From: Promicromonospora thailandica
GTDB taxonomy: Bacteria; Actinomycetota; Actinomycetes; Actinomycetales; Cellulomonadaceae
Direction of reading: 5' to 3'
DNA: 64,000 nucleotides
Assembly (NCBI RefSeq): GCF_024171955.1
Contig: NZ_JAMTCS010000013.1
Location: 1-64,000, forward strand
The position numbers and the translations under genes are program-made. Shown here one piece after another: positions 33,688-46,049 of the stretch (the first letter of the stretch is position 1; every line of letters starts with the position of its first letter). Under the pieces are notes generated by a model, which was given only the letters and a program-made list of their open reading frames with translations, made no database searches and was not told where the DNA came from.

Positions 33688-34517
33688 GGGGGCGCCGCAC
33701 CGTGCGCGTCGTGGTCGTGGCGGCGCTGACCGTCCTCGCCGTGGTGTTCGTGTACCCGCTGGTGTGGCTGGTGTCGGCGTCGTTCAAGCCGCGCGCCGAG
33801 ATCTTCGACAACCGGCTGCTGCCGCGCACCCCGACGCTGGAGAACTACCTCACGGTGTGGGACGCGGCGCCGCTCGGGCTGTGGCTGGCCAACACCCTGG
33901 TGGTGACGGCGCTCGCGGCCACGACCGTGACGCTGTCCAGCGCGCTGGTGGCGTGGGGGTTCGCGCACTACCGGTTCCGGGGGCGCGGGCCGCTGTTCGG
34001 GCTGGTGCTCGCGACGATGATGCTGCCGGGTGCCGTGACGCTCATCCCGACCTATCTCATCTGGCACCAGCTCGGGTTCGTCGGTACGACGGTGCCGCTG
34101 TGGGCGGGCAACCTGTTCGGCAGCGCGTTCTACATCTTCCTGCTGCGGCAGTTCTTCCTGGGGCTGCCGCGCGAGCCGTTCGAGGCTGCACGGCTGGACG
34201 GTGCGAGCGAGTGGGCCCTGTTCTGGCGCATCGCGGTGCCGCTGTGCCGGCCGGCGCTGGTGCTCGCGTTCCTGTTCGAGGCGCAGGCCTCGTGGACGGA
34301 CCTCATGCGCCCGCTGGTCTACCTCCAGGACACCGCGACGTTCACCGTGCCGCGTGGGCTCAAGGCCGTGATCGACCAGTTCGGTCCGGGCGGCGAGTCG
34401 CAGTGGGAGGTGGTGGTCACGGCGTCGGTGATCACGACCGTGCCGATGATCCTGCTGTTCTTCGCCGGGCAGCGGTACTTCGTGCAGGGCATCGCCACCA
34501 CGGGCTCGAAGGGTTAG
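33684..34517 (+). CDS. Sugar ABC transporter permease (MalG-like, second system)
   Basis: This 277-residue permease has six helices, EAA loop FEAARLDGASEWALFWRIAV and the usual C-terminus YFVQGIATTGSKG. ATG 33684 overlaps the preceding stop. It is the last gene of the three-gene importer. Its TAG stop overlaps the stop of the convergent TPP enzyme gene by four bases (34514-34517), so transcripts from both sides must terminate inside each other. Confidence 0.92.
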   Translation: MRGRRTVRVVVVAALTVLAVVFVYPLVWLVSASFKPRAEIFDNRLLPRTPTLENYLTVWDAAPLGLWLANTLVVTALAATTVTLSSALVAWGFAHYRFRGRGPLFGLVLATMMLPGAVTLIPTYLIWHQLGFVGTTVPLWAGNLFGSAFYIFLLRQFFLGLPREPFEAARLDGASEWALFWRIAVPLCRPALVLAFLFEAQASWTDLMRPLVYLQDTATFTVPRGLKAVIDQFGPGGESQWEVVVTASVITTVPMILLFFAGQRYFVQGIATTGSKG

Positions 34518-36178
34518 CGGGTGCGGTTGGCCCGCAGGATCTCCTCCTGGTACGGCGCGACGACCGATCCGGAGACGCGGCAGTCCAGCACGAGGAAGCG
34601 CCGCCGGTCGACCGGCTCGGCCGACCAGGCGGCCAGCCGGTCCAGGTCGCCGAGGGTGCGCACGACGACGCCCTCGGCCCCGACGGCGGTCGCCAGGGCG
34701 GCGAAGTCGGTCTCGGGGATGAGCATGGGCTCCTCGGCGAGGCCCTGCCGCCCGTAGACGTGCACCTCGGCGCCGTAGGCGGCGTCGTTCCACACGACGG
34801 CGAGGCCGCGGCCGCCCGCGGTGCGCACGGCGGTCTCGAGGTCGGCCAGCGCCATGAGGCCGCCGCCGTCGCCCGTGGTGAGCACGACGGCGTCGTCGGG
34901 CCGGGCAGCGGCGGCGCCGGCCACGCTCGGGAAGCCGAGGCCGATGGACTGGTAGGCGGTGCCGACCATCATCATGCGGTCGGGGGAGGCCACGGGCCAG
35001 TACATGTTGGCCCAGCCGATGAAGTGCCCGCCGTCGGAGACGACCACGCGGTCGCGCGGCAGCGTCCCCGCGAGCCGGTGGGCGACGGCGCGCGGGTCGA
35101 GGCGGCCGTCGGGCGCGAGCCCGTCGTCGGGGCCGGTGTCGTACCGGCGGGCCGCCGCGACGTCGACGGTCTCGCGCCAGCCCGACGGCCTGGCGCCCTG
35201 GGCGCGCAGCTCGTCGACGAGCGCACGGGCCACGAGGGCGGCGTCGCCGCGGATGAACCCGCCGACGTGGCGGTGCGTGGCCGCGGCCGCGATGTCCACC
35301 TGGACCACGCGCGTGCCGGGCGCGAACAGCTCGCCGAACCGCATCGTGAACTGGTTGAGGGACGCGCCGAGCACGACGGCGACGTCGGCCTGCCGCACGA
35401 GCTCCATCGCGTCGGCCGCGCCGAACCCGCCCGCGACGCCGAGGTCGTACCGGCCGTCGGGGAACACGCCGCGGCCCAGCGCGGTCGTGGCGGTCAGGGC
35501 ACCCGTGGCCTCGGCGAGCTCGCCCAGGGCCTCGCCCGCCCCGGCCAGCCACGCGCCGCGGCCCGCGAGCAGGACGGGACGCTCGGCGTCGGCGAGGTGC
35601 CGCGCCAGGTCGGTGATGGCGGCGGCGTCGAACGGGCCCGCCGGGGCGAGGGGAGCGGGCAGCACGGGCTCGGGCGCCTCGGGCACGGGCCCGGCCTCCA
35701 GCGCGGCGACGTCGTAGGGGATGGCCAGCACCACGGGCACGCGGTAGGTCAGGGAGTGCTCGATGGCGATGACGCTCGTGGCGGCGGCGTCGGCGCGGCC
35801 GACGGTGTACGTCCGCGCGCCGACGGCGGCCGCGAGCGCGATCTGGTCCACGTCCCAGGGGCGCGGGCCCGAGGTGGGCTCGTCGCCCGTGAGGAGCACG
35901 AGCGGCACGCGGGCCTGCGCGGCCTCGGCCAGCGCGGTGAGGGCGTTGGTGAAGCCTGCGCCGTAGGTGGCCGTGGCCGCCGCGATGCGGCCCGAGGCGC
36001 GGAAGTACGCGTCGGCGGCGACCACGCCGCCCGCCTCGTGGCGCACGGCGGTGAAGCGCGCGGTGGTCGAGCGGGTCAGGTCGTCGAGGAACCAGGCGTT
36101 GCCGTTGCCCATGACGCCGAAGACGTGGTCGACGTGGCGGGCGACAGTACGGGCGACGTGTGCGGACACGGTGGGCAC
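34514..36178 (-). CDS. Thiamine-pyrophosphate-dependent enzyme (acetolactate synthase/decarboxylase-like)
   Basis: This 554-residue TPP enzyme has three domains. The N-terminal PYR domain has VFGVMGNGNAWFLDDL and RFTAVRHEAGGVVAADAYFR with catalytic E48. A middle Rossmann domain follows (ERPVLLAGRGAWLAGAGEAL). The C-terminal PP domain has LTTGDGGGLMALADLETAVR (the GDG...N-type motif, ending VVWNDAAYG). It resembles acetolactate-synthase-like decarboxylases (benzoylformate or indole/phenylpyruvate type); the reaction cannot be fixed. Its position in the aromatic island suggests decarboxylation of an aryl-2-oxo acid. GTG 36178 is preceded by GGAGG. It has its own promoter (36304-36327). Confidence 0.8.
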   Translation of the reverse strand: MPTVSAHVARTVARHVDHVFGVMGNGNAWFLDDLTRSTTARFTAVRHEAGGVVAADAYFRASGRIAAATATYGAGFTNALTALAEAAQARVPLVLLTGDEPTSGPRPWDVDQIALAAAVGARTYTVGRADAAATSVIAIEHSLTYRVPVVLAIPYDVAALEAGPVPEAPEPVLPAPLAPAGPFDAAAITDLARHLADAERPVLLAGRGAWLAGAGEALGELAEATGALTATTALGRGVFPDGRYDLGVAGGFGAADAMELVRQADVAVVLGASLNQFTMRFGELFAPGTRVVQVDIAAAATHRHVGGFIRGDAALVARALVDELRAQGARPSGWRETVDVAAARRYDTGPDDGLAPDGRLDPRAVAHRLAGTLPRDRVVVSDGGHFIGWANMYWPVASPDRMMMVGTAYQSIGLGFPSVAGAAAARPDDAVVLTTGDGGGLMALADLETAVRTAGGRGLAVVWNDAAYGAEVHVYGRQGLAEEPMLIPETDFAALATAVGAEGVVVRTLGDLDRLAAWSAEPVDRRRFLVLDCRVSGSVVAPYQEEILRANRTR

Positions 36179-36330: not shown

Positions 36331-38217
36331 TCAGACCGGTCGGAGCGCGCCCCCGAGGAAGGCGGTCAGCTCGTCGCGCGCGGTCAGGGGCAGCACGGCG
36401 GCCACGTACTGGTCCGGCCGTACGACGACGACGGCGCCGCCGCGGTCGATGCCGCGCAGCTCGAAGATGTCGTGGGCGGGGTCGGCGGCGTACACCTTCT
36501 CGTAGTCGACGAGGCCGAACGGGCCGACCCGCGGCCGGAACACCGCGGGCACCGACGGGTGCTCGATCGCGTGGTGGTCCTGCTGGTAGACGACCTTGAC
36601 GTCGAGCACGGCGTCCGGGTCGCCGCCCGCGGGCGTGTGCCGCAGCAGCGGGGAGCCGGGTGCGGTGCCGAGCCAGTCGGCCCAGTCGCGCAGCGCCGAC
36701 GGTGCGTCCGGGGCGCCGGCGTCGGCGAACGCGTAGACGCGCCAGCGCCCGTCGGCGCGCGCGTGGTGACCCAGGTGCGCCGGGTTGCCGTCCGCCACGC
36801 GCGCGACCGGCGCCGACTTGAACCGCTTGCCCACCGGGAAGCCCGTGGCGAGGTGCTGGTGCTCGGCACCCGCCACGATCATCGACGGCTGGTACCGCGT
36901 CATGAACCCGCAGGGGAACTCCGCGGTCTTGACGTAGAAGTCCTCGAGATACGTGGGGTCGGGCAGGTCCTCGGGCCGGGTCGCCATGAGCCGCGACCAC
37001 TCCCGGTCGAAGTCGATGAGCTCCTGCGCGACGACCTGCCGCTCGGCGGAGTAGGTGGCCAGCAGCGACTCCGGCGCGCGCCCCGTGAGCACGTGCGCGA
37101 GCTTCCAGGCGATGTTCCACCCGTCCTGCATGGACACGTTCATGCCCTGCCCGGCCTTGGCGCTGTGCGTGTGGCACGCGTCGCCCGTGAGGAACACCCG
37201 GGGCGTGCGGGTGCCGGCCAGCTCGGCGGGCACGTCGTCGAACCCGTCGGTGACGCGGTGGCCCACCTCGTAGACGCTGTGCCAGGGCACGTCCTTCACG
37301 TCGAGCGTGTAGGGGTGGATGATCCGGTTGGCGCGCGCGATGATCTCGTCCAGCGACGTCGCGCGCACGCGTCCGCCGTCGTCGGCCGGGACCTCCCCGA
37401 GGTCGACGTACCAGCGGGCCAGGAACCCGCCCTCGCGGGGGATGAGCAGGATCGAGCCGCCGTCGTGCGACTGGATGGCGCACTTGGTGCGCACGTCCGG
37501 GAAGTCGGTCACGGCGAGCACGTCCATCACGCCCCAGGCGTGGTTGGCCTTGTCGCCCACGGCGGTGCGGCCGATGGCCTGCCGGACGGCGGAGTGCGCG
37601 CCGTCGGCCCCGACGACGTACCGGGCGCGGACGGTGCGCTCGGCGCCCTCGTGCGGGCCGGCGGTGTGGCGGAGAGTGACGGTGACGAAGCCGTCTCCCG
37701 CCGGCACGCTCAGCCCCGTGACCTCCAGGCCGTAGTCCGGGCGCACGCGACCCGGGGCGTTCGCCGCGACCTCGGCGAAGTAGTCCAGGACGCGCGCCTG
37801 GTTGACGATGAGGTGCGGGAACTCGCTGATGCCGTCCGGGTCGTCGGGCGGCACCGCCCCGCGCACGATGTTCTCGGGGCGTGCCGGGTCCGGCTTCCAG
37901 AACGCCATCTCGGTGATGCGGTAGGCCTCGGCCGTGATGCGCTCGGCGAACCCGAACGCCTGGAACGTCTCGACGCTGCGCGCCTGGATGCCGTCGGCCT
38001 GCCCCATCTCCAGACGTCCCGCGCGCCGCTCGACCACGTGGGTGCGGATGTCCGGGAACTGCGCGAGCTGCGCGGCCGTGATCATGCCCGCCGGCCCGCT
38101 GCCCACGATCAGCACGTCGACCTCGTCGGGCAGCCCGGCGGGGCGCACCAGGCCGTAGCCGGCGGCCGGGCGCACGTGCGGGTCGCCGGTGACGTACCCG
38201 TGGTGGTGGAACTGCAT
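36331..38217 (-). CDS. FAD-dependent aromatic hydroxylase (3-hydroxybenzoate 4-monooxygenase/phenol hydroxylase-like)
   Basis: This 628-residue class A flavin monooxygenase has VDVLIVGSGPAGMITAAQLA (FAD GxGxxG), RYVVGADGAHSAVRQAIG (DG motif) and VFLTGDACHTHSAKAGQGMN with VSMQDGWNIAWKLA (GD motif). A thioredoxin-like C-terminal domain from about residue 450 marks the phenol hydroxylase/MobA subgroup. Known MobA enzymes convert 3-hydroxybenzoate to protocatechuate. Here the neighbour operon degrades homoprotocatechuate, so a hydroxyphenylacetate is the more likely substrate (inference). It follows the MHS transporter gene by 11 bases. Confidence 0.85.
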   Translation of the reverse strand: MQFHHHGYVTGDPHVRPAAGYGLVRPAGLPDEVDVLIVGSGPAGMITAAQLAQFPDIRTHVVERRAGRLEMGQADGIQARSVETFQAFGFAERITAEAYRITEMAFWKPDPARPENIVRGAVPPDDPDGISEFPHLIVNQARVLDYFAEVAANAPGRVRPDYGLEVTGLSVPAGDGFVTVTLRHTAGPHEGAERTVRARYVVGADGAHSAVRQAIGRTAVGDKANHAWGVMDVLAVTDFPDVRTKCAIQSHDGGSILLIPREGGFLARWYVDLGEVPADDGGRVRATSLDEIIARANRIIHPYTLDVKDVPWHSVYEVGHRVTDGFDDVPAELAGTRTPRVFLTGDACHTHSAKAGQGMNVSMQDGWNIAWKLAHVLTGRAPESLLATYSAERQVVAQELIDFDREWSRLMATRPEDLPDPTYLEDFYVKTAEFPCGFMTRYQPSMIVAGAEHQHLATGFPVGKRFKSAPVARVADGNPAHLGHHARADGRWRVYAFADAGAPDAPSALRDWADWLGTAPGSPLLRHTPAGGDPDAVLDVKVVYQQDHHAIEHPSVPAVFRPRVGPFGLVDYEKVYAADPAHDIFELRGIDRGGAVVVVRPDQYVAAVLPLTARDELTAFLGGALRPV

Positions 38218-38228
38218 CGGTGGTCCTC

Positions 38229-39581
38229 TCAGGCCCTGGCCAGGCCGTAGACGGGGTTGACGGCCTGCACGTGCTCGTGGTCGGGGCCCAGCGGGATGCC
38301 CGTGCGGTCACGCAGCAGCAGCACCGCCGCCAGGCCGAGCAGCGTCATCCCCGCCAGATAGATCGTCACCGACGTGGCGCTGCCCGTCGCCTGCACCAGC
38401 GCCGTCGCGATGGTGGGCGCGAACGCGCCGCCCAGGATCGAGCCGATCGCGTACGAGATGGACACGCCCGAGAACCGGATCGACGCGGGGAACAGCTCCG
38501 CGTACAGCGCGGCCTGCGGCCCGTAGGTGAGCCCCAGACCCACCGACAGGAACGACAGGCCCAGCAGCAGGGAGCCGAACGTGCCGCCGTGCACCAGCGG
38601 GAACAGGGCCAGGACGCCCGCGAGCTGCACCACGAAACCCACCGCGTACGTGGTGCGGCGGCCCAGCCGGTCCGACACCCACCCCGCGAACCACGTCGAG
38701 GCCAGCCAGACGACGGCCGACGCCGTCACCGCCCACAGCACCAGCCCCTGGCCCATGCCCACCGCCCCCTGCGGGTCCGACGCGTAGCGCTGCACGTACC
38801 CGCCCGTGGTCATGTAGCCCACCGCGTTGTTGCCCGCGAACACCAGCGCCGCCACGATCACCAGCGGCGTGTGCCGGCGGAACAGGCGCACCACCGGCTG
38901 CCGCGTGGTCTGCGCCCGCTCGGCGATCTCGACGAACACCGGGCTCTCCTCGACGCTGCGGCGCACCCAGTACCCGATGCCGATGAGCACCACGCTGAGC
39001 AGGAACGGCACGCGCCAGCCCCACGCGAGGAACGCGTCGCCCGGGGCGACGGCGGTCATCAGGGCCAGCACCCCCGAGGCCAGGAGCAGACCCAGCGGCA
39101 CCCCGATCTGCGGGGAGGCGCCGTACAGGCCCCGGCGGCGCACGGGCGCGTGCTCGCACGACATGAGCACCGCGCCGCCCCACTCGCCGCCCGCCGAGAT
39201 GCCCTGCAGGATCCGCAGGAGCACCAGCAGCACCGGCGCCGCGACGCCGATCTGCGCGTACGTGGGCAGCACCCCGATCAGCGCCGTCGCCACGCCCATG
39301 AGCACGAGCGTGAGCACCAGCACCACGCGCCGCCCGTACCGGTCGCCGAGGTGGCCCGCGACGAACGCGCCCAGCGGCCGGAACAGGAAGCTGACCCCCA
39401 CCGAGCCGAACGCCAGCAGCGTCGCGAGCCCCGCGCCCGCCGGCTCGAAGAAGAGCTGCCCGAACACCAGGCCCGCGGCGGAGGCGTAGACGAAGAAGTC
39501 GTACCACTCGACCGTGGTGCCGACGATCGTGGCCGCGACGACACGACGGCGCTCGCGGGCGGTGGGCTGTGCCTCTGACAT
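38229..39581 (-). CDS. MFS transporter, metabolite:H+ symporter (MHS) family
   Basis: This 450-residue, 12-helix transporter has the MHS hallmarks: GTTVEWYDFFVYASAAGLVF at helix 1, DRYGRRVVLVLTL and LVLLRILQGISAGGEWGGAV at helix 4, and GWRVPFLLS. Members take up dicarboxylates, aromatic acids or betaines with protons. As the first gene of the minus-strand unit with the flavin hydroxylase, it probably imports the aromatic substrate. It is divergent from the FAH-RraA gene over a 117-base region with repeated ATACGA motifs. Confidence 0.9.
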   Translation of the reverse strand: MSEAQPTARERRRVVAATIVGTTVEWYDFFVYASAAGLVFGQLFFEPAGAGLATLLAFGSVGVSFLFRPLGAFVAGHLGDRYGRRVVLVLTLVLMGVATALIGVLPTYAQIGVAAPVLLVLLRILQGISAGGEWGGAVLMSCEHAPVRRRGLYGASPQIGVPLGLLLASGVLALMTAVAPGDAFLAWGWRVPFLLSVVLIGIGYWVRRSVEESPVFVEIAERAQTTRQPVVRLFRRHTPLVIVAALVFAGNNAVGYMTTGGYVQRYASDPQGAVGMGQGLVLWAVTASAVVWLASTWFAGWVSDRLGRRTTYAVGFVVQLAGVLALFPLVHGGTFGSLLLGLSFLSVGLGLTYGPQAALYAELFPASIRFSGVSISYAIGSILGGAFAPTIATALVQATGSATSVTIYLAGMTLLGLAAVLLLRDRTGIPLGPDHEHVQAVNPVYGLARA

Positions 39582-39652
39582 CGTATGACTCCCTCGTCAT
39601 CGCCCTCGTCGTTGCCGGGCTCGCACCGACCATATACGATCTGTGATACGAA
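39580..39652. promoter_or_regulatory. Divergent control region with repeated ATACGA motifs (candidate GntR sites)
   Basis: ATACGAT at 39634-39640 and ATACGAA at 39646-39652 are direct repeats 12 bases apart. ATCGTAT, the reverse complement of ATACGAT, sits at 39580-39586, on the start codon of the MHS transporter gene. GntR/FCD regulators bind short sites of this kind. A GntR gene is the second gene of the plus-strand operon, so control of both directions by it is plausible. Confidence 0.4.
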
Positions 39653-39698: not shown

Positions 39699-41168
39699 AT
39701 GGGTACGCACGGGATCGGGCCGTTCGCGCAGCGGCCGGGCAAGGTCGTCGCCGTCCACCTCGCCTACGCCTCGCGCGCCGCGCAGCGCGGACGGCGGCCC
39801 GCGGCGCCGTCCTACTTCCTCAAGCCCACGAGCTCGCTGGCCGCGAGCGGCGGCGTCGCCGAGCGGCCCGCCGGCGCCGAGCTGCTGGCCTTCGAGGGCG
39901 AGGTCGCGCTGGTCGTCGGCGAGCCGGCCCGGAACGTCACGGTCGAGGACGCGTGGGACCACGTGGCCGCCGTGACCGCGGCGAACGACCTGGGCGTGTA
40001 CGACCTGCGGTGGGCCGACAAGGGCTCCAACGTGCGCTCCAAGGGCCGCGACGGCTACACGCCGGTGGGCCCGGACCTGATCGACGCGCGCGTGGTCGAC
40101 CCGGGGGCCCTGCGCGTGCGCACGTGGGTCAACGGCGACCTCGTGCAGGAGGACACGACCGGCCCCGACGTGCTGCTGTTCCCCTTCGCGCAGATCGTGG
40201 CCGACCTGTCGCAGCACCTCACGCTCGAGCGGGGCGACGTGATCCTGACGGGCACGCCGGCGGGCTCGAGCGTCGTGGTGCCCGGTGACGTGGTCGAGGT
40301 CGAGGTGGACGCGCCGGCCGCGCCGGGCGCGCCGACGTCGGGCCGGCTGGTCACCACCGTGACGCAGGGCGAGGTGCCGTTCACGGACGTCGGCGCCGGG
40401 CCGAGGGTCGACGACACGCAGCGCGCCGAGGCCTGGGGGAGCCGGGAGGCGGCGGGGCTGGAGGCGCCGTTCGAGCTCACGGAGGAGCTGGCCGACCTGC
40501 TCCGCCGCACGCCCGTGGCGGGTCTGTCCGCGCAGCTGCGCACGCGCGGGCTCGACCACGCCGTCATCGAGGGCGTGCGGCCGCTCGCGCCGGGCACGAC
40601 GCTCGTGGGCCGGGCCCGGACCCTGCGGTTCGTGCCCTACCGGGCCGACCTCTTCGCGGCGCACGGCGGCGGGTACAACGCGCAGAAGCGGATGTTCGAC
40701 ACGGTGGACGCCGGCGAGGTGATCGTCATCGAGGCGCGCGGCGAGCCCGGAGCGGCCACGCTCGGCGACGTGCTCGCGCTGCGCGCGCAGGTGCGCGGCG
40801 CGGCGGGCGTGGTGACCGACGGCCGGGTGCGCGACTCCGAGGCCGTCGCCGCCACCGGGCTGCCCGTCTTCGCCGCCGGGCCGCACCCCGCGGTGCTCGG
40901 CCGGCGGCACGTGCCGTGGGACACCGACGTGGCCGTGGCCTGCGGCGGCGCCACGGTGCTGCCCGGCGACGTCGTGGTGGGGGACGCCGACGGCGTCGTC
41001 GTCATCCCGCCGCACCTCGTCGCCGAGGTGGCGCAGGCCGCGCTCGCGCAGGAGGAGCAGGACGAGTGGGTGGCCCGGCAGGTGGCCGACGGGCACGCCG
41101 TCGACGGCCTGTTCCCGCCGAACGAGGAGTGGCTCGCGCGCTACCGGGCGTCCCGGGAGGACGCGTGA
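39699..41168 (+). CDS. FAH-family isomerase fused to RraA-like domain (HpcE/HpaG-type role)
   Basis: This 489-residue, two-domain protein has residues 1-250 of the fumarylacetoacetate-hydrolase fold. Metal ligands E66 and E68 lie in FEGEVALVVG and D97 in AANDLGVYDLRW, followed by KGRDGYTPVGPDL and VILTGTPAGSS. Residues about 262-489 are RraA/HMG-aldolase-like: GAATLGDVLALRAQVRGAAG followed by VVTDGRVRDSEAV, with the R-D pair used by that family for aldol or decarboxylase chemistry. In enteric bacteria HpcE is a double-FAH enzyme that decarboxylates OPET and isomerises the product; here one half seems replaced. Its AAGGGAG supports ATG 39699. Confidence 0.85.
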   Translation: MGTHGIGPFAQRPGKVVAVHLAYASRAAQRGRRPAAPSYFLKPTSSLAASGGVAERPAGAELLAFEGEVALVVGEPARNVTVEDAWDHVAAVTAANDLGVYDLRWADKGSNVRSKGRDGYTPVGPDLIDARVVDPGALRVRTWVNGDLVQEDTTGPDVLLFPFAQIVADLSQHLTLERGDVILTGTPAGSSVVVPGDVVEVEVDAPAAPGAPTSGRLVTTVTQGEVPFTDVGAGPRVDDTQRAEAWGSREAAGLEAPFELTEELADLLRRTPVAGLSAQLRTRGLDHAVIEGVRPLAPGTTLVGRARTLRFVPYRADLFAAHGGGYNAQKRMFDTVDAGEVIVIEARGEPGAATLGDVLALRAQVRGAAGVVTDGRVRDSEAVAATGLPVFAAGPHPAVLGRRHVPWDTDVAVACGGATVLPGDVVVGDADGVVVIPPHLVAEVAQAALAQEEQDEWVARQVADGHAVDGLFPPNEEWLARYRASREDA

Positions 41169-41878
41169 CCGGCACCTCGGCCGTCGAGGACGCGTTCGCG
41201 GCGGTCAGCAAGTCCCAGCTGGCCTACCGGTCCCTGCGCGACCGGATCGCCCGCCGCGAGCTGAGCCCGGGCTACCGCCTGGTGCTGCAGAGCATCGCCG
41301 ACGAGCTCGAGATGAGCGTGGTGCCCGTGCGCGAGGCCATCCGGCGGCTGGAGGCCGAGGGCCTGGTCACCTACGAGCGCAACGTCGGCGCGCGGGTCGC
41401 CATGATCGACGAGCACGGCTACGTCGACGCCATGCAGGCCCTCGGCGTCGTCGAGGGCGCGGCCACCGGGCTCTCCGCCCCCGCCGTCTCGGCGGCGGAC
41501 CTGGGCCGCGCCCGCGAGGTGAACGGCCAGCTCCGCGCCCTGCTCGACCATTTCGACCCGCACGCCTTCACCGCGCTGAACCAGCGGTTCCACTCGGTGC
41601 TGTTCGAGTCGTGCCCCAACGGCCTGCTGCTCGACATGGTGCACCGCGGCTGGGCGCAGCTCTCCGGGCTGCGCGACTCCACGTTCGCGTTCGTACCCGG
41701 CCGGGCCCACGCCTCGGTGGCCGAGCACGACCACATCCTCGACCTCATCGCCCGCGGGGCCGACCCGCTCGAGATCGAGATCGCCGCGCGCGACCACCGC
41801 TGGGCGACCATGCAGGCCTTCCTCGACGCCCGCGCCGACCGCGCCGGCCGACCCGCCCGACCCACGGAGACACTGTGA
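41165..41878 (+). CDS. GntR-family (FCD) transcriptional regulator
   Basis: This 237-residue protein has an N-terminal GntR winged helix (LAYRSLRDRIARRELSPGYR, IADELEMSVVPVREAIRRLE, AEGLVTYERNVGARVA) and an FCD-type helical effector domain. Histidines in NQRFHSVLF, VAEHDHILDLI and AARDHRW probably form the metal/acid-binding site. It is translationally coupled (GTGA) to the FAH-RraA gene and to hpaE, so it is the likely pathway-specific regulator, responding to an aromatic acid intermediate. Candidate sites are in the 39580-39652 region. Confidence 0.9.
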   Translation: MTGTSAVEDAFAAVSKSQLAYRSLRDRIARRELSPGYRLVLQSIADELEMSVVPVREAIRRLEAEGLVTYERNVGARVAMIDEHGYVDAMQALGVVEGAATGLSAPAVSAADLGRAREVNGQLRALLDHFDPHAFTALNQRFHSVLFESCPNGLLLDMVHRGWAQLSGLRDSTFAFVPGRAHASVAEHDHILDLIARGADPLEIEIAARDHRWATMQAFLDARADRAGRPARPTETL

Positions 41879-43380
41879 CCCAGCCGACCCGATCTCTGCC
41901 CGCCGACCTGCCCGAGCGCATCCGGCACTACATCGGCGGTGCGTTCGCCGACTCGGCCGACGGCGCCACGTTCGACGTGCTCGACCCCGTGACCGACGAG
42001 GTCTACGCGCAGGCCGCCGCCGGCAAGGCCGCCGACGTCGACCGCGCCGTCGCCGCCGCGCGGAAGGCCTTCACCGACGGTCCGTGGCCCCGCATGCTGC
42101 CGCGCGAGCGCTCGCGGGTGCTGCACCGGATCGCGGACCTCGTCGAGTCCCGCGACGCGCGGCTGGCCGAGCTGGAGAGCTTCGACTCGGGCCTGCCCAT
42201 CACGCAGGCGCTCGGCCAGGCGCGCCGGGCCGCGGAGAACTTCCGGTTCTTCGCCGACCTGGTGGTCGCCCAGACCGACGACGCCTTCAAGGTGCCCGGG
42301 CGGCAGCTCAACTACGTCAACCGCAAGCCGATCGGCGTGGCGGGCCTGATCACGCCCTGGAACACGCCGTTCATGCTCGAGTCGTGGAAGCTCGCGCCGG
42401 CGCTGGCCACGGGCAACACGGTGGTGCTCAAGCCCGCGGAGTTCACGCCGCTGTCGGCGTCGCTGTGGGCGGGCATCTTCGAGGAGGCCGGCCTGCCCGA
42501 GGGCGTGTTCAACCTGGTCAACGGACTGGGGGAGGAGGCGGGCGACGCCCTGGTGAAGCACCCCGACGTGCCGCTCATCTCCTTCACCGGCGAGAGTGCC
42601 ACGGGGCAGCTCATCTTCGCCAACGCCGCACCGCACCTCAAGGGCCTGTCGATGGAGCTGGGCGGCAAGTCGCCCGCGATCGTCTTCGCCGACGCCGACC
42701 TGGAGGCCGCGATCGACGCGACGATCTTCGGCGTCTTCTCGCTCAACGGCGAACGCTGCACCGCGGGCAGCCGCATCCTGGTCGAGCGCGCCGTCTACGA
42801 CGAGTTCGTCGAGCGCTACGCGACACAGGCCGCGCGCGTCCGGGTCGGCTACCCGCACGACCCCGCCACCGAGGTGGGCGCGCTCGTGCACCCCGAGCAC
42901 CTCGCCAAGGTCCTGGAGTACGTCGAGCTCGGCAAGGGGGAGGGCCGCCTGGTCGCGGGCGGCGGGCGCCCCGAGGGCTTCAGGACCGGCAACTTCGTGG
43001 CGCCGACCGTGTTCGCGGACGTGCCGCGCGACGCCCGGATCTTCCAGGAGGAGATCTTCGGGCCGGTGGTCGCGATCACCCCGTTCGACACCGAGGCCGA
43101 GGCGCTCGAGCTGGCCAACGGCGTGAAGTACGGTCTGGCGGCCTACGTCTGGACCAACGACCTGCGGCGCGCGCACACCTTCTCCCAGTCGGTCGAGGCC
43201 GGCATGGTCTGGCTCAACTCGAACAACGTGCGCGACCTGCGCACCCCGTTCGGCGGCGTCAAGGCCTCGGGGCTCGGCCACGAGGGCGGGTACCGCTCGA
43301 TCGACTTCTACACGCACCAGCAGGCGGTGCACGTGACGCTCGGCGCCGCCCACAACCCGACGTTCGGCAAGGGGGCCTGA
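41875..43380 (+). CDS. hpaE: 5-carboxymethyl-2-hydroxymuconate semialdehyde dehydrogenase
   Basis: This 501-residue aldehyde dehydrogenase has all catalytic residues: N163 (TPWNTP), K186 (VVLKPAEF), E261 (SMELGGKSP) and C295 (LNGERCTAGSR). The length and the NSNNVRDLRTPFGGVKASGL ending fit the HpaE/HpcC group. The reaction is NAD-dependent oxidation of the ring-cleavage semialdehyde (CHMS) made by HpaD. GTG 41875 overlaps the gntR stop. hpaD follows after 4 bases, so flux enzymes are made together. The assignment rests on family plus operon context. Confidence 0.88.
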   Translation: MTQPTRSLPADLPERIRHYIGGAFADSADGATFDVLDPVTDEVYAQAAAGKAADVDRAVAAARKAFTDGPWPRMLPRERSRVLHRIADLVESRDARLAELESFDSGLPITQALGQARRAAENFRFFADLVVAQTDDAFKVPGRQLNYVNRKPIGVAGLITPWNTPFMLESWKLAPALATGNTVVLKPAEFTPLSASLWAGIFEEAGLPEGVFNLVNGLGEEAGDALVKHPDVPLISFTGESATGQLIFANAAPHLKGLSMELGGKSPAIVFADADLEAAIDATIFGVFSLNGERCTAGSRILVERAVYDEFVERYATQAARVRVGYPHDPATEVGALVHPEHLAKVLEYVELGKGEGRLVAGGGRPEGFRTGNFVAPTVFADVPRDARIFQEEIFGPVVAITPFDTEAEALELANGVKYGLAAYVWTNDLRRAHTFSQSVEAGMVWLNSNNVRDLRTPFGGVKASGLGHEGGYRSIDFYTHQQAVHVTLGAAHNPTFGKGA

Positions 43381-43384
43381 CGCG

Positions 43385-44476
43385 ATGTCCATTCCTACGC
43401 CCACGGCGCCCCCGCCCGACATCGTGCGGTGTGCCTACCTCGACCTCGTGGTGACCGACCTGGCCGCGTCGCGCGACTTCTACGTGGACGTGCTCGGGCT
43501 GGTCGTCACGTACGAGGACGCCGAGGCCGTCTACCTGCGCAGCCTCGAGGAGTTCATCCACCACAACCTGGTGCTGCGCAAGGGTCCGGTGGCCGCGGCC
43601 GCCGCGTTCGCCTACCGGGTGCGCTCGCCCGAGGAGCTCGACCGGGCCGTGGCGTTCTACCGCGAGCTCGGCTGCCGGGTGGAGCGGCGGGCCGAGGGCT
43701 TCACGCGCGGCGTGGGCGACTCGGTGCGTGTGACCGACCCGCTCGGCTTCCCGTACGAGTTCTTCTACGACGTCGAGCACGTCGAGCGCCTGGCCTGGCG
43801 GTACGACCTGCACACCCCTGGCGCACTGGTGCGCCTGGACCACTTCAACCAGGTCACGCCCGACGTGCCGCGCGCCGTGCGGTACATGGAGGACCTCGGC
43901 TTCCGGGTCACGGAGGACATCCAGGACGCCGAGGGCACCACCTACGCCGCGTGGATGCGCCGCAAGCCGACGGTGCACGACACGGCGATGACCGGCGGCG
44001 ACGGGCCACGCCTGCACCACGTCGCGTTCGCCACGCACGAGAAGCACAACATCATCGCCATCTGCGACAAGCTCGGCGCCCTGCGGCAGAGCGACCGCAT
44101 CGAGCGCGGCCCGGGCCGGCACGGCGTGTCCAACGCCTTCTACCTGTACCTGCGCGACCCCGACGGCCACCGCGTGGAGATCTACACGCAGGACTACTGG
44201 ACGGGCGACCCGGACAACCCCGTGGTCACCTGGGACGTGCACGACAACCAGCGGCGCGACTGGTGGGGCAACCCCGTGGTGCCGTCCTGGTACACGGAGG
44301 CCTCGCCCGTGCTGGACCTCGACGGCAACCCGCAGCCCGTCGTCGCGCGCACCGACACCTCGGAGATGGCGGTGACCATCGGCGCCGACGGGTTCTCCTA
44401 CACCCGCCCCGAGGACGACGAGGACGCGCTGCCCTCGTGGAAGCAGGGCGAGTACAAGCTGGGGCACCAGCTGTGA
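43385..44476 (+). CDS. hpaD: 3,4-dihydroxyphenylacetate (homoprotocatechuate) 2,3-dioxygenase
   Basis: This 363-residue type I extradiol dioxygenase has two VOC repeats. Metal ligands H153 (LDHFNQ), H212 (LHHVAF) and E265 (VEIYTQ), and second-sphere N155, W190, H198 and Y255, match the Brevibacterium fuscum HPCD residues H155, H214, E267, N157, W192, H200 and Y257 with a constant offset of two. This makes the function secure: ring cleavage of homoprotocatechuate to CHMS with O2. Sequence alone does not tell Fe from Mn; close actinobacterial homologues use either. Confidence 0.93.
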   Translation: MSIPTPTAPPPDIVRCAYLDLVVTDLAASRDFYVDVLGLVVTYEDAEAVYLRSLEEFIHHNLVLRKGPVAAAAAFAYRVRSPEELDRAVAFYRELGCRVERRAEGFTRGVGDSVRVTDPLGFPYEFFYDVEHVERLAWRYDLHTPGALVRLDHFNQVTPDVPRAVRYMEDLGFRVTEDIQDAEGTTYAAWMRRKPTVHDTAMTGGDGPRLHHVAFATHEKHNIIAICDKLGALRQSDRIERGPGRHGVSNAFYLYLRDPDGHRVEIYTQDYWTGDPDNPVVTWDVHDNQRRDWWGNPVVPSWYTEASPVLDLDGNPQPVVARTDTSEMAVTIGADGFSYTRPEDDEDALPSWKQGEYKLGHQL

Positions 44477-45273
44477 CGGCCGGGCGCACGCTGGACGACG
44501 CCGCGGTCACCGCGATCGCCGACGAGCTCGCGCGGGCCGAGGCGGACCGCACCACGGTGCCGCTGCTCACCGCCCGCCACCCGGGCATGACGGTCGAGGA
44601 CGCCTACGCCGTGCAGAACACGTGGCGCCGCCGGGGCATCGAGGCCGGGCGGCGGCCCGTGGGCCGCAAGATCGGCCTCACCTCAAAGGTGATGCAGGCG
44701 GCCACCGGTATCACCGAGCCCGACTACGGCGCGATCTTCGCCGACATGGTGGTCGAGAACGGCACGGTCGTCGAGCACGCGCGGTTCTCGAACGTGCGGG
44801 TCGAGGTCGAGCTGGCCTTCGTGCTGCGCGACCGCCTCACCGGCCCGCACGCCACGGTGTTCGACGTGCTGCGCGCCACCGAGTACGTGGTGCCCGCGCT
44901 GGAGATCCTGTCGTCCCGGATCGAGATGCCCGGCCGCACCATCGTCGACACCATCAGCGACAACGCCGCCATGGGCGCCATGGTCCACGGCGGGCGGCCC
45001 GTCGCCCCCGACGCCGTGGACCTGCGCTGGGTCTCCGCGCTCCTGCACCGCAACGAGACCGTCGAGGAGTCCGGGGTCGCGGCGGCGGTGCTGGGCCACC
45101 CCGCGGCCGGCGTCGCGTGGCTCGCGAACAAGCTCGCGCAGCACGGCGACGCGCTCGAGCCGGGCGAGATCGTCCTGGCGGGCTCGTTCACCCGCCCGGT
45201 CTGGATCGAGCCCGGCGACACCGTGCTGGCCGACTACCGAGAGCTGGGGACCGTCTCGTGCCGCTTCGTGTGA
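44473..45273 (+). CDS. hpaH: 2-oxo-hept-4-ene-1,7-dioate hydratase
   Basis: This 266-residue protein is of the FAH-like hydratase family (MhpD/HpaH). It has RPVGRKIGLTSKVMQAATGI, metal-site acidic residues E111, E113 (RVEVELAFVL) and E144 (PALEILSSRI), and NAAMGAMVHGGRP. Length and spacing fit HpaH. It adds water to 2-oxohept-ene-dioate to give 4-hydroxy-2-oxoheptanedioate, the HpaI substrate. GTG 44473 overlaps the hpaD stop and its own stop overlaps the hpaI start, so expression is strictly coupled. Confidence 0.9.
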   Translation: MTAGRTLDDAAVTAIADELARAEADRTTVPLLTARHPGMTVEDAYAVQNTWRRRGIEAGRRPVGRKIGLTSKVMQAATGITEPDYGAIFADMVVENGTVVEHARFSNVRVEVELAFVLRDRLTGPHATVFDVLRATEYVVPALEILSSRIEMPGRTIVDTISDNAAMGAMVHGGRPVAPDAVDLRWVSALLHRNETVEESGVAAAVLGHPAAGVAWLANKLAQHGDALEPGEIVLAGSFTRPVWIEPGDTVLADYRELGTVSCRFV

Positions 45274-46049
45274 CCCTCCCGCCCACCTTCCGCGACCGGA
45301 TCGCCGCGGCCGACCGGCCGCAGGCCGGCATGTGGGTCTGCACCGGCAGCCCGGCGGTCGCCGAGATCTGCGCCGGGGCGGGCCTCGACTGGCTGCTGAT
45401 CGACGCCGAGCACTCGCCGATCGGCCTGGAGTCGACGACGGCGCTGCTCCGGGCCGTCGCGCCGTACCCGGTCACACCCGTGGTGCGCGCGCCGTCGGAC
45501 GACGTCGTGGTGCTCAAGCAGCTGCTCGACCTCGGCGCGCAGAACGTGCTCGTGCCCATGGTCGACACCGCGGAGCAGGCCGCCGCCGTCGTGCGCGCCG
45601 TGCGGTACCCGCCGCGGGGCGTGCGGGGTGTGGGCAGCGCGCTGTCCCGCGGCGCCCGGTGGAACCGCGTCGAGGGCTACATGCGCGACGCCGACCGGTA
45701 CGTCTCCCTGTTCGTGCAGGTCGAGTCCGCGGCTGCGGTCGAGAACGCCGCGGAGATCGCGGCCGTCGACGGCGTGGACGGCGTCTTCGTGGGGCCGTCC
45801 GACCTCGCGGCGTCGATGGGCCTGCTCGGGCAGCAGACGCATCCGGACGTCGTGGCCGCGGTGCGGCGCGCGTTCGAGGCCGTCCGGGCCGCGGGCAAGC
45901 CGGTGGGCGTCAACGCCTTCGACCCCGAGGCCGCGCGGGCCTACCTGGAGGCCGGGGCATCGTTCGTGCTGGTCGGCGCCGACGTCGCCCTGCTCGCCCG
46001 GGGCTCGGAGGAGCTGGCCGACCGCTGGGCCGGGCCCGCGGGGGAGTGA
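45270..46049 (+). CDS. hpaI: 4-hydroxy-2-oxoheptane-1,7-dioate aldolase
   Basis: This 259-residue HpcH/HpaI-type class II pyruvate aldolase shows D45, H48 (LLIDAEHSP), R73 (VVRAPS), E152 (FVQVESAAAV) and D178 (VGPSDLAAS), which correspond to E. coli HpaI D42, H45, R70, E149 and D175 with a constant offset of three. It cleaves the substrate to pyruvate and succinate semialdehyde. I choose GTG 45270 (overlap GTGA, protein starting MTLPPTFRDRI) instead of GTG 45258, since homologues start at this point. It is the last gene of the operon; a succinate semialdehyde dehydrogenase is not present nearby. Confidence 0.92.
   Translation: MTLPPTFRDRIAAADRPQAGMWVCTGSPAVAEICAGAGLDWLLIDAEHSPIGLESTTALLRAVAPYPVTPVVRAPSDDVVVLKQLLDLGAQNVLVPMVDTAEQAAAVVRAVRYPPRGVRGVGSALSRGARWNRVEGYMRDADRYVSLFVQVESAAAVENAAEIAAVDGVDGVFVGPSDLAASMGLLGQQTHPDVVAAVRRAFEAVRAAGKPVGVNAFDPEAARAYLEAGASFVLVGADVALLARGSEELADRWAGPAGE

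Follow-up and report, generated by a model that had tools for sequence, protein, structure and literature searches.

A protein joining FAH and RraA-like domains in actinobacterial homoprotocatechuate operons, a probable stand-in for HpaG and perhaps HpaF

The stretch of DNA considered here, hereafter the window, comprises 64,000 nucleotides of Promicromonospora thailandica (contig NZ_JAMTCS010000013.1, positions 1 to 64,000). At 39699..41168, on the forward strand, it contains a gene whose product of 489 amino acids brings together two domains. The first is an FAH domain (FAA_hydrolase, PF01557; 39741..40361, +), matched by Pfam over residues 15-221 with an E-value of 1e-45. The second is RraA-like (PF03737; 40524..41003, +; residues 276-435, E 6e-34, 117.9 bits against a cut-off of 24.5), and is also placed by NCBIfam matches and by an alignment with the structure 3noj. 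An earlier note on this DNA had proposed that a single protein carries both domains, and the Pfam matches on one open frame of 489 residues confirm it. A longer mechanical reading frame begins at an upstream ATG at 39585, and conservation starts only near residue 12. A chance junction or a frameshift artefact is ruled out, as 90 fetched loci have the fusion in one open frame.

The fusion heads an operon in which all genes lie on the forward strand. It is followed by a GntR/FCD regulator (41165..41878, the start being approximate; Pfam), the CHMS dehydrogenase HpaE (41863..43380; TIGR02299, 654.7 bits, over the cut-off of 638.35), the homoprotocatechuate 2,3-dioxygenase HpaD, of the glyoxalase fold (43385..44476; TIGR02295, 430.6 bits, over the cut-off of 321.4), an HpaH-like hydratase (44476..45273; TIGR02312, 349.4 bits, just below the cut-off of 351.5) and an HpaI-like aldolase (45270..46049; TIGR02311, 316.5 bits, 52 below the cut-off of 368.8). 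The four hpa genes that had been named beforehand are indeed next to the fusion, HpaE and HpaD with scores over their NCBIfam cut-offs, HpaH and HpaI with scores below theirs.

Three genes run divergently, on the reverse strand. The nearest encodes an MFS carrier (38229..39581, -), whose best NCBIfam model, the metabolite/H+ symporter TIGR00883, gives 382.3 of 443.45 bits, below the cut-off. Beyond it lies an FAD aromatic hydroxylase of the phenol 2-monooxygenase type (36331..38217, -; NF006144, 1009.4 bits), a candidate for the upstream hydroxylase; it is a single-component FAD enzyme, not HpaBC, and is found in 56 of 80 fusion loci. The third is a TPP-dependent enzyme (34514-36142, -), which falls short of the cut-offs of all the NCBIfam models listed for it and is present in 33 of the 80 loci; it could supply aromatic pyruvates to the pathway.

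The full length of the fusion, from residue 9 to 487, is matched by the NCBIfam model NF009399 (PRK12764.1; 797.9 bits, cut-off 444), as are all 34 members scanned, the window protein among them. The fusion itself is therefore already catalogued, and the missing part is its function: NCBI names the family "fumarylacetoacetate hydrolase family protein", without a specific function, and such proteins carry annotations such as RNase regulator or dimethylmenaquinone methyltransferase. The fusion passes NF006093, the PRK08245 subfamily of RraA (225.8 bits, cut-off 208), and fails the two models for HMG/CHA aldolases (TIGR02798, 66.3 of 304.5 bits; NF006731, 72.8 of 179 bits). That the locus has no classical HpcE or HpaG1-G2, as the earlier note had it, holds for every model concerned: NF011750, which describes the bifunctional HpcE/HpaG with two FAH domains, gives 122.5 bits against a cut-off of 811; TIGR02303 (HpaG-C, OPET decarboxylase) gives 145.4 against 276.4; TIGR02305 (HpaG-N, HHDD isomerase) gives 95.2 against 228.65; and the fusion has one FAH domain only.

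How widespread is this arrangement? A scan of contigs with the fusion protein (E up to 1e-3) returned at least 256 matching stretches, of which the best 80 were taken; these relatives, 64-94% identical, align with the protein over almost its entire length, and their contigs, going by the names, are presumably actinobacterial. Sixty-six loci are well flanked, with at least 5 kb before and at least 6 kb after the gene. When neighbours are counted at 45% identity or more, HpaE is present in 65 of them, HpaD in 65, HpaH and HpaI in all 66, and the GntR regulator in 62; the one well-flanked locus with neither an HpaE nor an HpaD match is L071. By position, then, the fusion replaces HpcE/HpaG, as had been suggested, since it is linked to each hpa gene in 65 or 66 of the 66 loci.

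HpaD scores over its cut-off in 13 of 396 actinobacterial genomes. The fusion is present in eight of these (G000, G008, G225, G257, G268, G316, G343 and G338); four have a single FAH adjoining HpaE (G081, where it is cut by a run of N, G032, G058 and G111); and the last, G109, has a separate RraA adjoining HpaD. RraA proteins of the PRK08245 type (E up to 1e-45) occur in 10 of the 396 genomes, nine of them among the 13, and the tenth, G026, has a separate RraA; with the same search no fusion was found outside the 13 HpaD genomes. Fisher tests of the co-occurrence give about 1e-14 and 1e-13 with related genomes treated as independent, so that these small values overstate the independence of the cases.

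In two of these genomes halves of the fusion type occur as separate genes. In G109 both halves exist as separate genes on different contigs. Its RraA (L104) scores 342 bits on the RraA part of NF009399 and adjoins an HpaD over the cut-off and a gene of the DHDPS family; no FAH match was found on that contig. Its FAH (L160) is 46% identical to the FAH half of the fusion and shares its stretch with an HpaE-like dehydrogenase that is below the cut-off (512.2 of 638.35). G338 has a separate FAH of the fusion type near HpaD (L105:855-1490) as well as a complete fusion adjoining HpaE (L156:2291-3703). Separate genes of one pathway that fuse later are as expected of linked steps.

A side observation concerns the DHDPS-family protein (PF00701), which occurs in some actinobacterial hpa loci outside the class of the window (L100:4489-5439, L104:5887-6840 and L156:3709-4608). 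No HpaI match was found in these three stretches, and an alternative aldolase or hydratase is a possible role for it.

The FAH half was examined in an alignment of 90 rows, the window protein and 89 relatives, with L045 left out for its length. The metal ligands E66, E68 and D97, which had been described as intact, are so: together with the lysine K115 they are invariant in 90 of 90 rows. The same E, E, D and Lys are found in all five HpaG-C-type FAHs sampled. The five HpaG-N-type FAHs (from E. coli, Azotobacter, Pseudomonas frederiksbergensis, Vitreoscilla and Paraburkholderia) have all lost the E-x-E ligands, the Vitreoscilla row scoring 227.0 on TIGR02305, just below the cut-off of 228.65. 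The triad is also kept in ordinary FAHs, such as the one on contig C17 of the window's own genome and G268_L106, and is the usual state of the fold.

A second feature sets the FAH half apart. Where the C-type proteins have a His and a Glu (5/5 rows) in a region that we take to be a lid, the fusion has the invariant stretch S25-R26-x-x-Q29-R30-G31-R32, with R26 and Q29 in 90 of 90 rows; the G338 fusion, which is outside these rows, has Glu at 29. The Ser-Arg pair is already present in the separate FAHs of G338 and G109, and the change from His to Arg is therefore probably older than the fusion.

Family placement is less telling. The best E-value of TIGR02303 against 34 fusion members is 1.6e-53, and the FAH half is closer to HpaG-C than to HpaG-N in 90 of 90 rows. 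This closeness was considered as proof of decarboxylation and rejected: three other FAHs (C17, Rind_L142 and G268_L106) behave likewise, and all five other FAHs that were scored on TIGR02303 reach 167-211 bits, more than the window protein. An agreement with HpaG-C at N111 and T121 was dropped as well, because M and L occupy these positions in the two closest separate FAHs. Two trees of FAH domains, the second without Drad_hyp1370, the window's own HpaH, single_Rleg (long branches) and two fusion rows, left the fusion clade unplaced. In the hpa loci without a fusion the single FAH is HpaG-C over the cut-off in five of the six scanned (three from actinobacteria outside the class of the window and two from Deinococcus, G081 having been left out), and the sixth, from Rhizobium, has 161.1 against 276.4.

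In the RraA half, all 90 rows agree at G356, D357, R378 and D379. The motif GD...DGRVRD, given in the earlier note as the signature of the family, is present in the window protein; the family consensus, in turn, is DGGVRD, with G at residue 376 in 85 of 90 rows and R in two. The best PDB match of this half is 5x15. When it is aligned with the HMG/CHA aldolase 3noj, R378 coincides with Arg-123 and D379 with Asp-124. In the aldolase this pair binds the metal and stabilises the enolate of pyruvate; the enzyme also decarboxylates oxaloacetate, at a rate of about 2 per second, and exchanges the methyl protons of pyruvate (PMC5065237). The fold is thus capable of both decarboxylation and proton transfer on a 2-oxo acid. 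In a tree of RraA domains the 12 fusion rows cluster, and the G338 fusion lies next to the separate RraA of G109, where the branching order is not resolved.

Separate RraA proteins resembling PRK08245 are also met away from hpa genes. In two of four plasmid loci opened (L133:4992-5717 and L135:4992-5717) such a protein, annotated as a ribonuclease activity regulator, adjoins an L-arabinonate dehydratase. This is as expected of 2-oxo-acid chemistry, and these two are likely sugar-acid enzymes.

The genome of the window (24 contigs, 99.82% complete) has three FAH matches, namely the fusion, HpaH and the protein on C17, and two RraA matches, the fusion and one on C3. A profile search of its 24 contigs for the CHM isomerase HpaF (PF02962) found none, and HpaF was likewise found in none of 48 genomes of actinobacteria, of which 43 carry the fusion, in a search whose sensitivity rests on one positive, a Rhizobium plasmid (157.8 bits), 14 standard control genomes having given no PF02962 match. 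Nor was PF02962 found in the four single-FAH actinobacterial genomes or on the D. deserti plasmid, and the same four genomes gave no match to a PRK08245-type RraA. Could a tautomerase of the 4-OT type (PF01361) stand in for HpaF? The window's own genome has two matches, and such proteins occur in just 10 of 20 fusion genomes; this candidate is ruled out as a regular substitute.

The FAH on C17 was considered as a separate OPET decarboxylase for the operon. All 15 genomes searched have a counterpart of at least 59% identity, even the three among them that gave no HpaD match, so that it looks like a housekeeping protein not tied to the operon, and the candidate was discarded. It is the only FAH of the genome besides the fusion and HpaH, and no separate decarboxylase that always accompanies the operon was found.

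From all this we infer that the fusion acts on CHM, OPET and HHDD, and we put the probability that it serves the segment from CHM to OHED at roughly 80%, the association with hpa genes across genomes giving it good support. It would probably be the actinobacterial stand-in for HpaG, and for HpaF too. The earlier note had spoken of the substitution of one half of a bifunctional enzyme; the stand-in for HpaG agrees with that idea, and its scope appears larger, since HpaF, whose absence the note had missed, was found in none of the 48 actinobacterial genomes. Coverage of the HpaF step by the fusion is plausible, and it may be unnecessary, for CHM isomerisation can occur spontaneously, according to a passage of the Acinetobacter baumannii study (PMC12718150).

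In the mechanism that we propose, the conversions CHM → OPET → HHDD → OHED would take place on one polypeptide, acting between HpaE and HpaH. The metal-bearing FAH half would take hold of OPET, a tri-acid, by its 2-oxo-carboxylate end and decarboxylate it, as has been proposed for the C-terminal half of HpcE, an arginine-rich lid replacing the one with His and Glu. The RraA half, with its Arg and metal-Asp pair suited to a pyruvate-type enolate, would shift a proton, from HHDD to OHED and perhaps also from CHM to OPET.

Which half, then, does what? In HpcE the metal-bearing C-terminal FAH has been assigned as decarboxylase and the N-terminal FAH as isomerase, an assignment that the A. baumannii study describes as based on structure alone (PMC12718150). 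The FAH half of the fusion keeps the ligands that five of five isomerase-type FAHs have lost, which favours FAH as the decarboxylase and RraA as the isomerase; we hold this division of labour at even odds. The metal FAH also seems to be the part that is never given up, and the parsimonious reading, held with moderate confidence, is that it would be the decarboxylating one. There are counterweights: the HpaG-C score of 145.4 bits, far under the cut-off, the presence of the ligands in ordinary FAHs, the unplaced trees, the loci of Deinococcus and some actinobacteria with one FAH and no RraA, in view of which RraA is perhaps dispensable, and the tautomerase activity of FAHD proteins, to which we return below. 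The A. baumannii enzymes add a caution, because there the isolated "isomerase" decarboxylates better than the isolated "decarboxylase", and decarboxylation needs the OPETD-HHDDI complex, which is 60-fold better than OPETD and 12-fold better than HHDDI alone (PMC12718150). Given such a need for a complex, it is understandable that two domains should be covalently joined, whatever the task of each half.

The earlier note had put forward the opposite split, with RraA as the decarboxylase and FAH as the isomerase. On this view the RraA half would act on OPET by way of an enolate bound to the metal, and the FAH half would be an isomerase or tautomerase. The catalytic residues of RraA are invariant, the HMG/CHA aldolase of the same fold does decarboxylate oxaloacetate, and in G109 it is the separate RraA that sits beside HpaD on a contig with no FAH match. 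FAHD proteins, moreover, carry the same metal triad as the fusion. They act mainly as tautomerases of oxaloacetate, which they decarboxylate on average about 20,000-fold more weakly (PMC10825186). Against it stand the E-x-E ligands, absent from the N-type FAHs of hpa operons (5/5) and present in the C-type FAHs (5/5) and in the fusion, the decarboxylase-type FAH in five of the six single-FAH loci scanned, and the fact that G109 does have a fusion-type FAH, on another contig. The reverse of the note's assignment fits better, and we regard its version as unlikely, with about half the weight that we give to the FAH half as decarboxylase.

It is less probable still that the FAH half carries out both the decarboxylation and the isomerisation of HHDD, leaving the RraA half to replace only HpaF, in the step from CHM to OPET. 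The absence of HpaF from the 48 genomes and the irregular presence of 4-OT-type tautomerases would agree with this, and so would the single-FAH operons, which suggest that one FAH may suffice for the remaining steps. Such operons also speak against it: the four single-FAH genomes and the D. deserti plasmid have no HpaF match, and those four no PRK08245-type RraA, so that CHM isomerisation may need no enzyme at all. Least probable is that the RraA half is off the main path, as a scaffold or with an aldolase or oxaloacetate decarboxylase side activity; complex formation does stimulate OPET decarboxylation in A. baumannii (PMC12718150) and an aldolase role would be natural beside L-arabinonate dehydratase, but the catalytic residues are invariant, the operon already has an HpaI-like aldolase, and in G109 the separate RraA is associated with HpaD without fusion.

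We would give slightly less than an even chance to the most far-reaching reading, in which one polypeptide of two unrelated metal-enolate folds replaces HpaF, HpaG-C and HpaG-N, and the RraA half contributes an activity not recognised before in RraA proteins, isomerase/tautomerase or else OPET decarboxylase, in a meta-cleavage trunk pathway.

Why does this matter? According to its authors, the 2025 A. baumannii study completes the enzyme assignments of the pathway; in that organism the middle segment runs best when three proteins are present, of which two form a complex (PMC12718150). A natural fusion in which the metal FAH is retained and has an RraA partner could show on which domain the chemistry depends. 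Its role would also give a function to a recurrent family, with at least 80 full-length relatives, that databases name only by fold, and a defined catabolic role would correct the annotations as RNase regulator or dimethylmenaquinone methyltransferase.

A search of the open-licence literature found no description of the fusion or of an RraA half in the homoprotocatechuate pathway; a paper on an Arthrobacter FAH deals with a different one (PMC7356986). NF009399/PRK12764.1 describes the same full-length fusion, and what is new here is the proposed pathway role. Other actinobacterial solutions exist, since the homoprotocatechuate cluster of Rhodococcus ruber Chol-4 is described with a 4-oxalocrotonate tautomerase (PMC6498646). 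With the HMG/CHA aldolase (3noj) and the RraA-fold protein 5x15 the RraA half aligns on the same G-D and R-D residues; unlike the aldolase, it is fused to FAH, linked to hpa genes and below the HMG/CHA aldolase cut-offs.

Corynebacterium aurimucosum offers a closer parallel. In the 2010 account of its hpaGLEDHI-gabD2 cluster, hpaG is called OPET decarboxylase and hpaF lies elsewhere, as cauri_0890; the passages of that account on the cluster mention no RraA domain in hpaG (PMC2830990). The gene order is that of the fusion operons, with the regulator second and E, D, H and I after it, and this order, together with the relative L068 from C. minutissimum, suggests by analogy that the C. aurimucosum hpaG may be the fusion.

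The closest known systems are HpcE/HpaG (E. coli B REL606 hpaG, PDB 1gtt) and the split OPETD/HHDDI pair (hpaG1/hpaG2). Unlike HpcE/HpaG, the fusion has an RraA domain in the place of the metal-less FAH, its FAH half belongs to neither the HpaG-C nor the HpaG-N family, and its genome has no HpaF match. In both the known systems and the fusion, however, there are two domains, of which one is a metal-bearing FAH, encoded in an hpa operon near hpaE and presumed to lead from CHM/OPET to OHED.
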